From the NCBI GenBank assembly GCA_027486525.1, contig JAIXOY010000050.1, positions 1 through 36,939 on the forward strand: a DNA stretch of 36,939 nt, read 5' to 3'. A program made the position numbers and the translations under genes. This document shows, piece after piece, positions 7,185 through 12,121 of the stretch. The stretch comes from Pseudomonadota bacterium (GTDB taxonomy: Bacteria; Bdellovibrionota; Bacteriovoracia; Bacteriovoracales; Bacteriovoracaceae). Below the pieces are notes generated by a model. The model worked only from the letters and a program-made list of their open reading frames with translations. It searched no databases and was not told the DNA's origin. The stretch's first letter is position 1, and every line of letters starts with the position of its first letter.

Positions 7185-7613
7185 ATGGCCATCGAAAAAA
7201 CTCTGAGCATTGTTAAGCCAAACTCAACTTTGGATAACAACATCGGTAACATCATCAGCATTTTTGAGAAGAACGGCTTGCGCGTTTCTGCAGCTCGCTT
7301 TGCAAAACTCTCTAAAGAAAAAGCTGAAGGCTTCTACATCGAGCACAAAGAACGTCCATTCTTCGGCGAACTGGTCACGTTCATGACTTCAGGTCCTGTG
7401 TTGTTGATGGTTCTCGAAGGTGAAAACGCAGTCGCGAAGAACCGCGAGCTCATGGGCGCCACGAACCCAGCGAACGCTGCTCCCGGCACCATTCGCAAGC
7501 TCTACGCGAAGTCTGTCGGCGAAAACTCAGTGCACGGTTCAGACTCATCATCTGCCGCTGAACGCGAGATCGCTTACTTCTTCGAGAAACACGAAGTGGT
7601 CAATCGCTTTTAG
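7185..7613 (+). CDS. ndk: Nucleoside diphosphate kinase
   Basis: 142 residues, the family's usual size. It moves the gamma phosphate between nucleoside di- and triphosphates through a phosphohistidine. The active site is His117 in the signature NSVHGSDS. Other conserved segments are [10 protein letters not shown] at the N-terminus, the RPFFGELV loop and [21 protein letters not shown] lies 7 bases before the ATG. It sits 34 bases after sucD and is followed at once by a strong terminator (7638-7664), so sucC-sucD-ndk look like one transcript. Nothing is unusual in the protein. Confidence 0.97.
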
Positions 7614-7673: not shown

Positions 7674-8246
7674 ATGAAACTACTGATGATCGTTTTGATG
7701 AGTTTGTTTTTTTCTCAGTCTTTTGCAGCTCAAAAACTAGTCGAGCTCACGGCCGACTCTGACAGCAGTGGCAAGGTCAGTTACAGCAAAACTAAGTACC
7801 AAGGTGAGAGTTCAGAGGATGCAACTTATTTGTCTTTCTCTGTGAACGGAGCCTATCAGTTGGGCGAAAGTTCATTCATGGCAGGCCTGCGGGGCGCCTA
7901 CGGTATTGGCCGCAGTGATGGCTACAGAGCGTCTACTCAAAGTTTACTGGTCGGCGGCTATTACAACTTCGATCCGAAGTTCAACGAGGCTTTCTACGTC
8001 TCATTGCACACCGGCCTAGGTTTGAACATTGTGGGCGGCAATGACACCGAGGACTCTCGGAATGAATTTACGGAGACCGTCGCCACTTTCGGCAAACGCT
8101 TTCCGATCAAGATGTTCGGTTCCGAGAACATCACTTACTCACCGTCTGTTTCCTACAGCATCGTGAACTTCACTGAATCGACTTCATACAGTGAGTATCG
8201 CAACGATCTATCAATTGACTTTCTTAAGTTTGCAGCCGTGTTCTAA
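7674..8246 (+). CDS. Small outer-membrane beta-barrel protein
   Basis: 190 residues. Residues 1-18 are a Sec signal peptide (MKLLMIVLMSLFFSQSFA, then AQK). The mature part alternates polar and aromatic residues as short amphipathic strands (YLSFSVNGAYQL, SLLVGGYYNFD, FYVSLHTGLGLNIVGG). It ends in FLKFAAVF, with the terminal phenylalanine that the BAM machinery recognises in outer membrane proteins. This supports an 8-strand-type barrel, but I recognise no specific family and cannot name a ligand. GGAG sits 5 bases before the ATG, immediately after the T-tract of the ndk terminator, so expression needs read-through or a promoter inside the end of ndk. The stop codon lies inside another terminator hairpin. 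Confidence 0.75.
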   Translation: MKLLMIVLMSLFFSQSFAAQKLVELTADSDSSGKVSYSKTKYQGESSEDATYLSFSVNGAYQLGESSFMAGLRGAYGIGRSDGYRASTQSLLVGGYYNFDPKFNEAFYVSLHTGLGLNIVGGNDTEDSRNEFTETVATFGKRFPIKMFGSENITYSPSVSYSIVNFTESTSYSEYRNDLSIDFLKFAAVF

Positions 8247-8275
8247 GAAAAGCCCCGCACAGCGGGGCTTTTCTT
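8245..8275. terminator. Bidirectional terminator shared by convergent genes
   Basis: This is a perfect 14-base inverted repeat: AAGAAAAGCCCCGC (8245-8258) and its complement (8262-8275) around a 3-base loop. Each arm ends in an A/T-rich tract, so it works in both directions. It contains the last bases of the plus-strand stop (8244-8246) and of the minus-strand stop (8274-8276). Confidence 0.88.
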
Positions 8276-9908
8276 ATGGTTGTTCGAGAAAATCTGATCG
8301 CAGACAGTGCTCTTCAACATCCGCACAATCTTCGGGGGTGCTAGCGTAAGCGTTCTTGGCGCAATCGTTGTAGGACTGGACTTGCGTCATGCATGAACCG
8401 GCCAAGATTCTTTGAACTTGCTTTGGATGAATGAAGGCCGTCGAACCTGGATTCGCATCAAAGCTGAATTTGTTATCAGTGACAACATCTCCGAGCGTCG
8501 TGGCCCCCCATACGAAACTTTCTTTTAATCCGAAGTGGCACCCGCGATTGTTGACCTTCAGCTGTCCACCGACGATTTGCGCCAGTGTTTCGCGGCAACG
8601 AGCGTCGGCCTCCGGACAGGTGCACTCGGTCGAGCTACCATAGATAGTCTTCCAGTCGTTTTGGTTCATGTAGTAGTCAGTCATGGAAAGTTTGAGTCCA
8701 TCCGGTGACAGCGTAGCAGTGAAGGGTTGTTTCGGAGGATTCGGATACGTGGATGGCCATGCTAACGATGCCGTACCCGTCGGTGTCGTGCAGAAAGCAT
8801 TGCGGAATCGAGCTGATGTCCGATCGTCCCAGCGAAGCGCTTTGAGAAAGTTCAAGCGTCCAGGTTGTGCGATGGCCGCCGCACAATCTGCATTGGGACA
8901 TTCACAAGTCACTCGGCGGGGAACCGAGGCATTAAAGGCTTCGAAGTTATCGACCATCACGTTATTTTGCTTCGATGTCGCGCGACAGATGTACCCATCC
9001 GATTCACCGGCATATTCGTCGCAGAGGCCCACGAGGTGAAGAATCTCATGCACGATGGTAGGGCAGCCCACGTCGTGAGCGTAGTTCTTTGAGTGTGAGC
9101 GCACGTCCGGGGCATGGTCTATGGTGATGGTGTTGGCCTTAGGTTGTACGTCAGTGGGGAGTCGCGCAGCTTCCGTGGGAGTGAGAAGATCAAACTGCAT
9201 GGGCTCTCCGGTGGGGCCCTTGATGAGACCACCCACCGCCTGCATGCAGCCACGGGCCTGAGCCATCATCCTCTCACTACTCACCATTTTATCCGACGGA
9301 GCGGTGGTACCAGCGGCCTGTACAAAATTGATGTTGAGGGCCACTCGGATTCCAGCAGAACTTTTGTTGAGACTGTAGTCGACGGTGTTACCGTAGGCAG
9401 ATGCGCCCGAGACACGTTTCCATGTGTTATTGATCAACGGAGCACACTCGTTCACGCTCTGAGCATTGGCGGCTAAAGCCAGAAGCGACTCGATCCCACT
9501 TTCGTGGACTTGACAGGCCAATGCTTTATAGTTGTTACCCCATACGATCGGCTCGTAGGAATTGAGGCGCTCCATGATGCGTTTTATCGCAGGCGTTGGA
9601 GGCGTAACGAGAGCGAGGTTCTGCAGCAGAGTATCCACACACTCTGCGGGATAGTCGGTGGCGATGTTACCCACCGTTTTCTCTATGGCCGTCGTCGCTT
9701 CTGCAAATTCCATGGGACCCGTTGGCCCTTCGAGAGGGGCGAGGAGTTCGGCGCAGTCAGTGGAGTTCGAAGCTCCACGTTTAAGGATTTCATCCATCTG
9801 CTTCTTCATGATTTCACCGCGAACCGCGGCGTCAGTAATCATGGCGACAGCATCAACCGCTAACGCCGTGGTCGGTAACCAGGCCAGCAGCATGAGGGTC
9901 TTAATCAT
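8274..9908 (-). CDS. Secreted metzincin-like zinc metalloprotease, paralog 2
   Basis: 544 residues from ATG 9908, with a Sec signal peptide (MIKTLMLLAWLPTTALA). The motif HEILHLVGLCDEY at about residues 287-299 gives HExxHxxGxxD (His287, Glu288, His291, Asp297). That is the metzincin zinc site with Asp as third ligand, as in snapalysin-like enzymes. About 15 cysteines, including a CECPNADC cluster soon after the active site, suggest a disulfide-rich exported domain. The first 150 residues could be a propeptide; they share the pattern GPTGPMEF and LLQNLAL with the upstream paralog. The longer upstream start at 9965 adds an implausible N-terminus. ATG 9908 overlaps the preceding gene's TGA (ATGA), showing tight coupling. 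The catalytic assignment comes from the motif only; the family is not one I can name. Confidence 0.75.
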   Translation of the reverse strand: MIKTLMLLAWLPTTALAVDAVAMITDAAVRGEIMKKQMDEILKRGASNSTDCAELLAPLEGPTGPMEFAEATTAIEKTVGNIATDYPAECVDTLLQNLALVTPPTPAIKRIMERLNSYEPIVWGNNYKALACQVHESGIESLLALAANAQSVNECAPLINNTWKRVSGASAYGNTVDYSLNKSSAGIRVALNINFVQAAGTTAPSDKMVSSERMMAQARGCMQAVGGLIKGPTGEPMQFDLLTPTEAARLPTDVQPKANTITIDHAPDVRSHSKNYAHDVGCPTIVHEILHLVGLCDEYAGESDGYICRATSKQNNVMVDNFEAFNASVPRRVTCECPNADCAAAIAQPGRLNFLKALRWDDRTSARFRNAFCTTPTGTASLAWPSTYPNPPKQPFTATLSPDGLKLSMTDYYMNQNDWKTIYGSSTECTCPEADARCRETLAQIVGGQLKVNNRGCHFGLKESFVWGATTLGDVVTDNKFSFDANPGSTAFIHPKQVQRILAGSCMTQVQSYNDCAKNAYASTPEDCADVEEHCLRSDFLEQP

Positions 9909-11527
9909 GGCGTACCTTCTTGAAGCCAGCTGGCGCTCTGACAATAGTCTGGTGCATAGGCGCATACGCTGGGATCAGTTTCATAAGCAAATGAAGCGCA
10001 AGTGTTATAGCGAGTAGACTTGGTAGGGCAGGTGCCATCGAGGATTCGATTGAAGTGGGCCGGTTGTAAGAGAGACGCGCCGGGGACAGCGGGTACATCG
10101 AAGGTGACTGTATTCTCTGTCGCAGAGCCGCTTCCAGACGTGGCACCCCATGTAACCTCGGTGCGTTTTGTGTGCGGAGGGCAATCATGTCCCACGCTTT
10201 CATGCGGACCTTGAATCAGACGGGCTGACGCGCGCTGGCACTCGGCAATGTTCCCCGTCGCGCATTTGCAGGTGTAAACAAATCCTTCGACCTGACCATT
10301 ATTGTTCAGGTTGATTTCTCGAAAGATAACCCCACCGTTGGTGTTCTCACCTTTCTCTGCATATGTTTGATCTTTATAGGTTTCATTCTTGAGCCATGCC
10401 TCGACGTAGTCACTATCGAGGTCACGCTTTTTGCAGTAGAGGTTACGAAAACGAATGTTCGTGATCTGCTCAAAACGTGGCTGGCGTATGAATTCACGAT
10501 TCGCGGGGCTTGCTTTTAAGGCACGACACAGGTCTTTGTCTTCACACTCGCAAGTCACGCGACGTGGAACTGAACGTGCGAATGCTGTTTCAGCACTTTC
10601 CATCACAGAATCAAGCGGGCCGCGGGCACGGCATGCGAAGCCGTCGCGGTCGCCGCTGTACTCATCGCACAGACCCATTAGGTGCATCACTTCATGGACG
10701 AGCGTGGGGCACGCAATATTCTCCTGGTAGTTGCCGGCGTTGCTGCCGATCGCACCCGGCGAAATGTTTACCGTCTGCGCCTTCGGGCGATTTCCCTCAG
10801 GAATTCCGCTCGCCGCCATTTCCGCAGGAGAGAGGAGCTCAATTTGCAGGCTCTTGCCTCCCGGGCCCTTCATCGATCCGCCGGCTGCAGCGAGGCAGCC
10901 CTTAGCACGAGCGAGCATTTGCGCCGAAGTCACCGTGCTGCCATTTTGTTTGAAATCGACATTTAAGACTGCGCGATAGTTGTTCGGCTTGTCACGCGCG
11001 AGGAGGTAGTCAATAGTTCTATTCCCGAAGGGTGCCTTGCCATTCACGCGCTTGGCTTTGCCCACGTTGAGTGAACCACATTCAGTGGCAGAGCTCACCG
11101 ACCGCATGAGTTCTTTGAGCTCTGGGAAATCGACGGGGGCAGCAACACAGGCTCGCTGAGCACTGAGGTCGTCCTCGAAGATCGGGCGCGAGATATCAAT
11201 CAGTCTTTGCATCACCGTGCGGGCATTCGCCGATGCGGGGAGGGTGGCCAGGTTTTGCGTGAGCAGGTTCATGCACTCCGAAGACAGGAACCGCTGCAGA
11301 TTAGCGGCTTGGTTTTCGATCGCTGCCACAGCAGTGTGAAACTCGATGGGGCCGGTTTTTCCAGGAAGGGGCTCAAACATGTCGTCGCAGTCATCGCCAT
11401 CATCATTGAGGCGGCCCGCGATCGTCTGCGTTTGCTGATTCATCAGCGCGATGTTCGCGTTGATGTCTTCCTGCGTGAAGGCCCAGGAATTCGAAGCCAG
11501 AAGTAGTGCGGCGAAGAATAATTTCAT
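9905..11527 (-). CDS. Secreted metzincin-like zinc metalloprotease, paralog 1
   Basis: 540 residues with signal peptide MKLFFAALLLASNSWA. The zinc site is HEVMHLMGLCDEY at residues 278-290 (His278, Glu279, His282, Asp288), again HExxHxxGxxD. Shared landmarks with the downstream paralog run the full length: GKTGPIEF and LLTQNLA near the N-terminus, MLARAKGCLAAAGG, IACPTLVHE, the post-active-site RRVTCECEDKDLC, RFRNLYC, and a late VTWGATSGS. The two genes are thus a tandem duplication that has since diverged. Cysteine number and spacing are largely kept, which fits a disulfide-stabilised exported enzyme. It lies 3 bases after the 196-residue exported protein gene and overlaps the next gene by 4 bases. 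Activity and substrate are inference; degradation of prey or environmental protein would fit. Confidence 0.77.
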   Translation of the reverse strand: MKLFFAALLLASNSWAFTQEDINANIALMNQQTQTIAGRLNDDGDDCDDMFEPLPGKTGPIEFHTAVAAIENQAANLQRFLSSECMNLLTQNLATLPASANARTVMQRLIDISRPIFEDDLSAQRACVAAPVDFPELKELMRSVSSATECGSLNVGKAKRVNGKAPFGNRTIDYLLARDKPNNYRAVLNVDFKQNGSTVTSAQMLARAKGCLAAAGGSMKGPGGKSLQIELLSPAEMAASGIPEGNRPKAQTVNISPGAIGSNAGNYQENIACPTLVHEVMHLMGLCDEYSGDRDGFACRARGPLDSVMESAETAFARSVPRRVTCECEDKDLCRALKASPANREFIRQPRFEQITNIRFRNLYCKKRDLDSDYVEAWLKNETYKDQTYAEKGENTNGGVIFREINLNNNGQVEGFVYTCKCATGNIAECQRASARLIQGPHESVGHDCPPHTKRTEVTWGATSGSGSATENTVTFDVPAVPGASLLQPAHFNRILDGTCPTKSTRYNTCASFAYETDPSVCAYAPDYCQSASWLQEGTP

Positions 11528-11530
11528 GGT

Positions 11531-12121
11531 CTACTCCAGGTAGAGTGCGCCCCACTCACGGGCGAGACAGCGAGTTGGAAAGCGCGAACTCTCGCAGAAG
11601 AAGCGCGCATTGAAGGCCTCGCGCTTCACTTCTTTTCCATCGGCGTAGAACACGTAGTTCTTGCGGTCTTTGTCGAGCTCCACTCCTTGCATGAGTTTCA
11701 AGGGAGCTTCCTGTAACTTCTCAGCGATCTTCTCGAGACGGCCGTAGAGGCTCGAGCCTTCCTGAACCTTAAATCCATTAACGCGGAAGAAGGGCGCATG
11801 GGGCTTGTCGTTGTTGTTGAGTTCGTTGAAGCCTCGCCCGAGCGCATTGAGACGTTGATCGGCGGCTTTTATTTCGCTTTCGATCTGGCCAAGTTCCGCG
11901 GTGACCACTTTGAGGGGGCCCGGGTTTTGGACGGCGAATTCACCGAGGCGTGTGTCTTCTTTCTTATCAAACCAGTTACTCGTTTTTTTGATGATGAGCT
12001 GGCCGTCTTCGTCATGCACTTCCATCTTGTCGGTGCCCAAGGAAGTCGAGCGTTCCATGGCGAACTTAAGTGCGGCCTGGCCGGTAAGAGGAATGAGGAG
12101 TAAAACGAGAAGGAACTTCAT
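11531..12121 (-). CDS. Exported 196-residue protein, first gene of the protease operon
   Basis: Signal peptide MKFLLVLLLIPLTGQA, then 180 residues I cannot assign to a family. Residues about 75-100 are predicted helical (ELGQIESEIKAADQRLNALG), with another helix at about 130-145 (LEKIAEKLQEAPLKLMQ). Two cysteines near the C-terminus (FFCESSRFPTRC) could form a disulfide. AGGGAGAG lies about 6 bases before the ATG. It is the promoter-proximal gene, followed after only 3 bases by two metalloproteases. That position would fit a protease-specific chaperone, inhibitor or secretion partner, but the sequence itself shows none of these. Confidence 0.7.
   Translation of the reverse strand: MKFLLVLLLIPLTGQAALKFAMERSTSLGTDKMEVHDEDGQLIIKKTSNWFDKKEDTRLGEFAVQNPGPLKVVTAELGQIESEIKAADQRLNALGRGFNELNNNDKPHAPFFRVNGFKVQEGSSLYGRLEKIAEKLQEAPLKLMQGVELDKDRKNYVFYADGKEVKREAFNARFFCESSRFPTRCLAREWGALYLE

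Follow-up and report, generated by a model that had tools for sequence, protein, structure and literature searches.

Recurrent pairing of exported metzincin-like proteases with a cognate exported partner in Bdellovibrionota

Systems in which a secreted protease is encoded together with its own cognate factor are known. In Erwinia chrysanthemi, inh lies in one locus with prtG, prtB, prtC and prtA (PMC3034196), and the products of the protealysin-emfourin operon bind one another 1:1 in the region of the active site (PMC9505478). Bdellovibrionota include predatory bacteria and carry many uncharacterised exported proteases, and here we describe, in dozens of genomes of this phylum, a recurrent protease family and its cognate partner, neither of which has a name in Pfam or NCBIfam. 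What is new is the pairing, the two unnamed families and the association of the partner with an N-terminal region of the protease; a literature search found nothing describing the WP-WA-WB system or the protease family.

The locus and its two proteases

The window, i.e., the whole stretch of DNA analysed (36,939 nucleotides), forms contig C101 in a draft genome of 331 contigs and 3.49 Mb. All three ORFs, WP, WA and WB, are carried on its minus strand, with the following features.

12121-11531, minus strand: WP, a 196-aa exported partner (ORF; profile matches adjoining protease genes phylum-wide; AF2 model)
11527-9905, minus strand: WA, a 540-aa exported metzincin-like protease (ORF, AF2 model, family profile, weak M6 match)
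11189-11473, minus strand: helical N-terminal module of WA, candidate prodomain (residues ~19-113; AF2 secondary structure)
10658-10696, minus strand: active site of WA, HEVMHLMGLCDEY (residues 278-290; from sequence)
10601-10603, minus strand: Met309 of WA, candidate Met-turn (invariant in the 39-row and 44-row alignments)
9908-8274, minus strand: WB, a 544-aa paralog of WA counted from the ATGA start, overlapping the WA stop
9012-9050, minus strand: active site of WB, HEILHLVGLCDEY (residues 287-299; from sequence)
8244-8276, no strand assigned: predicted intrinsic terminator with a 15-bp stem at the WB stop, common to the operon and the convergent gene 7674-8246

The ORF check bears out the three-gene exported operon of the initial annotation, including the coordinates, the gap of 3 bases between the WP stop and the WA start, and the ATGA by which WA and WB overlap. 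An alternative ATG at 9965 would extend WB to 563 aa. The annotated signal peptides are likewise present on all three products, as Sec-type sequences read from the sequence (SWA-F, ALA-V and GQA-A for WP, WA and WB, respectively), and no lipobox Cys was seen in any of the three when these were read by eye. The predicted terminator stem at 8244-8276 is the longest among four terminator-like matches, in a scan that as a whole did not rise above shuffled expectation.

On one side the operon is flanked by an ndk-like gene (7185-7613) followed by the small exported convergent gene, and on the other by a CarD-like gene and gltX, from 12355 onward; the order ndk, protease cluster, carD, gltX is kept in two congeners (G001 and G003). 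The convergent gene 7674-8246, which would share its terminator with WB, encodes 190 aa with a signal-like N terminus and matches no Pfam family above cut-off. Elsewhere in the window, the 758-aa product of positions 32783-35059 matches the M36 fungalysin metallopeptidases of Pfam weakly, though above cut-off (26.2 bits).

WA and WB are paralogs over their whole length, as annotated, with about 33-35% identity (35% over residues 27-537, E 1e-82), and each of the 20 cysteines of WA has a counterpart among the 20 of WB. One HExxHxxGLCDEY site is present in each, and WA residues H278, E279, H282, G285, L286, D288, E289 and Y290 are invariant among 39 homologs. The N-terminal pattern said to be common to the two proteins is real, and consists of a C followed by P..G.TGP[IM]EF. 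The Cys-rich segment after the active site, annotated as CECxxxxxC in both, has this spacing in WA (CECx5C) and is one residue shorter in WB (CECx4C).

A profile built from 39 members found relatives in 81 of the 369 genomes of the phylum. Of 103 homologous copies whose motif could be read, all keep HExxH and the Asp at position 11 and 101 keep the Gly at position 8, and the Met equivalent to Met309 is absent only in a few divergent ones; the motif, found in both WA and WB by the initial annotation, is therefore not a chance find. None of the Pfam or NCBIfam models reaches its cut-off with the proteases, in agreement with their having been left outside any named family. Judged from sequence, the family spans Bdellovibrionota and has no family name assigned. 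Named relatives in a pattern scan belonged to Bacteriovoracaceae, Halobacteriovoraceae and other Bdellovibrionales MAGs, and with this one scan as its scope beyond the phylum, the family appears so far confined to Bdellovibrionota. A match in Virgisporangium (L137), which covers 63 residues at the motif, was set aside. A mobile origin of the system was dropped, since plasmids, phages and viral contigs yielded no relatives.

Congeners carry three to five family members each. In the core tree, WA and WB group with two operon copies of G001 and one copy of G004 (SH-aLRT 98), and WB pairs with the single partner-adjoining copy of G004 (SH-aLRT 99); the core of WB is 64% identical to its counterpart in one congener. 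The simplest reading of this sequence-based grouping is a local duplication inside the operon lineage. Three distant proteins of G026 (L028, L029 and L030) carry HExxHxxGLxDEY near the C terminus, and each lies next to an ORF of 264-304 aa that begins with a signal-like sequence and escapes the partner profile.

The partner and its association with the N-terminal region

A search for the partner in the 369 genomes gave 52 matches (E<1e-10), among which 46 lie beside a family protease, four at contig ends and two, in G312 and G362, are orphans. When only partner genes not cut by a contig end are counted, 46/48 adjoin a family protease, which upholds the annotated view of a dedicated partner. 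Three of the 46 stand 0.6-0.85 kb from the protease, and one is next to a motif-less protease (L172). The partner frame of that last locus (L172:4644-6246, G226) is open, and the neighbouring protease ORF lacks the zinc motif and contains a stop. The orphan in G312 (L225:5613-6296) lies near sucC-sucD-ndk, a neighbourhood that it shares with the window. WP homologs adjoin proteases in each of the four congeners as well as in further genera, and iterated profiles extend this across the phylum. The partner was found downstream of the protease in 33 cases and upstream in 11, with frames that mostly abut or overlap. Distances among partners correlate with those among proteases (r 0.76, 0/2000 permutations), a correlation that is also expected from shared inheritance and is not decisive for a direct link. 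In G124 and G125, three-protease arrays (L195 and L196) carry three and two divergent partners, and partner orthologs match between the two genomes at 66-67%, more closely than partners do within one.

Nearly all complete partner copies begin with a signal sequence. Conserved residues of WP include N49, F51, G60, H108 and a C176/C185 pair near the C terminus; in the partner alignment G60 never varies, and the Cys pair and G191 seldom do. The AF2 model (pLDDT 89, pTM 0.82) confidently predicts an alpha/beta protein in which a meander of four strands is followed by a long helix, then a hairpin, another helix and additional strands. As the initial annotation had it, the partner is outside any named family: WP has no relative in Pfam, NCBIfam or the PDB, and in a set of 29 diverse partners the matches to Pfam, its known inhibitor families included, were isolated and all sub-threshold. 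Foldseek searches with WP against the PDB and viral models gave nothing significant, the best E values being 0.3 and 0.19, with Mago nashi at a TM score of 0.26-0.36. An emfourin-like fold for WP was dropped, there being no Pfam match and no emfourin in the top 50 Foldseek matches, and homology of WP to the protease core was rejected at a profile comparison probability of 0.1%.

WA consists of a signal peptide, the helical N-terminal module (~19-113), a linker (118-129), the catalytic domain (~150-330) and a Cys-rich C-terminal part. In the AF2 model the linker, with pLDDT<50, divides the module from the catalytic domain. Two cysteines of the module, C47 and C85, co-occur (0.81). Across the family, copies are either short forms, in which the catalytic domain comes soon after the signal, or long forms with an extra N-terminal region. 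Rather than being missing beside most homologs, the partner adjoins 41/77 assessable protease copies, among them nearly every copy with the N-terminal region. At least 240 residues precede HExxH in 37/41 copies with a partner and in 5/36 without (Fisher p 4e-12, uncorrected for phylogeny). Two copies with a partner that look short (L163 and L150) encode the N-terminal domain in an ORF that is separate from, or overlaps, that of the protease, and a further short copy (L018) has its partner in common with a long copy; true short forms with a partner are L145, L158 and L167. That the partner follows the N-terminal region, and that short forms without a partner exist, goes beyond the initial annotation. 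One such case is a second tandem pair in the same genome (contig C17, L013:6680-9564), made up of the short forms HELLHFAGLCDEY and HEFLHHAGLCDEY without a partner, whose relatives recur in congeners. On the protease tree, partner presence changes ~11 times and yields a single independent pair on supported branches, too few to give the test power, so that shared ancestry may still underlie the association of the partner with the N-terminal region.

An orphan 286-aa exported protein of G240 (L227:4791-5648) contains a partner-like domain at residues 145-283 (E 5e-7), preceded by a domain resembling the W-x-C domain at the N terminus of the large proteases; this second match is weak (E 0.05, among ~2,400 ORFs with filters off), and the layout was checked post hoc. 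No protease of the WA/WB family was found in G240. The fusion-like layout is suggestive of, and not decisive for, a link between the partner and the N-terminal domain.

Possible roles of the partner

WP probably controls the proteases before their release. We tentatively favour the possibility that it is a co-exported cognate factor which, docked on the prodomain-like N-terminal region, either holds the precursor latent or serves as its escort. The operon would then encode an exported module for proteolysis with two components. WA and WB would be zinc endopeptidases that are translocated by the Sec system and held by many disulfides, with the N-terminal module, flexibly linked ahead of the catalytic domain, most likely acting as a prodomain. 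WP, exported alongside, would bind this module in the periplasm and keep the precursor latent or escorted until release, after which the enzymes may degrade protein outside the cell. For the use on prey or in the environment suggested by the initial annotation, no supporting evidence was found. As the partner accompanies the N-terminal module and is lacking when the module is, it is likelier to act through the module than at the active site, and a low-confidence linker between module and catalytic domain is expected of a prodomain. It is for these two reasons that latency or escort is favoured over the roles of inhibitor, foldase and targeting subunit.

The first of these, an inhibitor of the classical periplasmic type, would protect the cell by plugging the active-site cleft of WA and WB, as Inh does for serralysins or emfourin for protealysin; this is the main rival, if an unlikely one. 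The partner is adjacent and exported, its signal is of the cleavable type and it lacks a membrane anchor; a single small gene can serve several proteases in tandem, as inh does in Erwinia chrysanthemi (PMC3034196), and emfourin and protealysin, from one operon, associate 1:1 at the active-site region (PMC9505478). However, short forms keep the same catalytic domain without a partner, and a plug should guard them too. In addition, mature WP has ~180 aa, whereas Inh is a 10 kDa protein, and strand 1 of the WP model starts from residue 19, two or three residues past the likely signal cleavage, which leaves no counterpart to the free five-residue trunk at the N terminus of Inh.

We consider it improbable that WP is a dedicated foldase for these disulfide-rich proteases, in the way that lipase foldases serve lipases. 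Strict linkage, co-export and the 20 cysteines per enzyme would fit such a role, which overlaps with the escort half of the reading we favour. Known lipase foldases are membrane-anchored, however, and WP shows no anchor; moreover, short forms that have the catalytic and the Cys-rich C-terminal parts in common with the long ones manage without a partner. A stable secreted subunit, targeting the protease to a surface or substrate in a complex that is proteolytic outside the cell, would agree with how widely the partner occurs with long proteases and with the duplicated partners alongside the tandem proteases of L195 and L196, but no binding-domain homology was found for WP, and we regard this role as highly improbable.

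Returning to control through the N-terminal module, it is tempting to speculate, although we would judge it rather unlikely, that WP founds a family of exported protease-control proteins with a PDB-unmatched fold, recognising the prodomain and not the active site of this metzincin family. If so, partner-dependent zymogens would coexist in one phylum with short enzymes that share their catalytic domain and do without a partner. The association of the partner with the N-terminal region offers a direct and simple test of how the maker stays safe from such enzymes, and suggests an annotation rule in which the long form goes with a partner and the short form without.

Metzincin assignment and comparison with known systems

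The metzincin reading of the initial annotation is supported by the motif, and for the fold by the predicted order of elements but by no Foldseek match. WA and WB have the zinc motif HExxHxxGxx(H/D), with Asp in the third-ligand position, and a downstream Met by position (39 and 44 aligned sequences). In the AF2 model of WA (pLDDT 87; catalytic blocks 90-98), the predicted elements follow the metzincin order of strands, helix A, strands, active-site helix, Met and helix, with helix 312-319 straight after Met309. A Foldseek search of the PDB with the full-length model, run without a positive control, returned no metzincin and no match with E<0.001; we therefore call the family metzincin-like, and make no claim of new folds for WA or WP.

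M6 peptidases have an HExxHxxGLxDxY-type site with Asp. The nearest known models are metzincins, with M6 foremost: the M6 domain model gave sub-threshold matches to 34/44 catalytic cores (best E 4e-5); WA reached 16.3 bits against a curated cut-off of 110.8 (E 0.007, over ~46 residues round the active-site helix), short of membership of the family. M64 also stayed below its Pfam cut-off (3/44 cores, best E 0.13), and PF09471 had no match in the window's own genome. Astacins (M12A; HExxHxxGxxHE) and serralysins (HExxHxxGxxH) have His as the third ligand, whereas all copies here have Asp, and PF01400 matched WA at E 0.18. Profile comparison gave 92% with astacins against 2% with an M48 control, aligned at the motif only. 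The best metzincin PDB chains for the core profile (1c7k, 4hx3 and 4l63; snapalysin and EcxA) were sub-threshold (E 0.24-1.4), with alignments at HExxH that for EcxA extend through the Met. That WA and WB are unrelated zinc proteins with a similar motif would agree with the Foldseek result, but is extremely improbable given the conservation of HExxH and Asp in every readable copy, the nearly invariant Met, the M6 and astacin comparisons and the predicted order of helices and strands.

Among described systems, M6 proteases such as immune inhibitor A (TIGR03296, PF05547) share the Asp-type site and the weak match in most cores, and WA and WB differ from them in scoring far below the curated cut-off, in their Cys-rich flanks and in their partner. 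Snapalysin (M7) and EcxA are alike at HExxH, and in EcxA through the Met, with all matches sub-threshold. Protealysin and emfourin resemble the present system in combining a protease and a small partner gene in one operon, but protealysin is a different protease type (M4) described as intracellular (PMC9505478), and WP, unlike emfourin, has a Sec signal and no Pfam match. Compared with the RTX serralysins (M10B), WA and WB have Asp and not His in the third-ligand position and their own Sec signals, and neither RTX repeats nor adjacent type I secretion genes were seen; WP is larger than Inh, does not match it in sequence and has no free N-terminal trunk in the model. Despite the different third ligand, serralysin with Inh/AprI is by analogy the known system whose working may be nearest, since it likewise has a metzincin-type protease, an adjacent Sec-exported small partner and several proteases per partner gene (PMC3034196).
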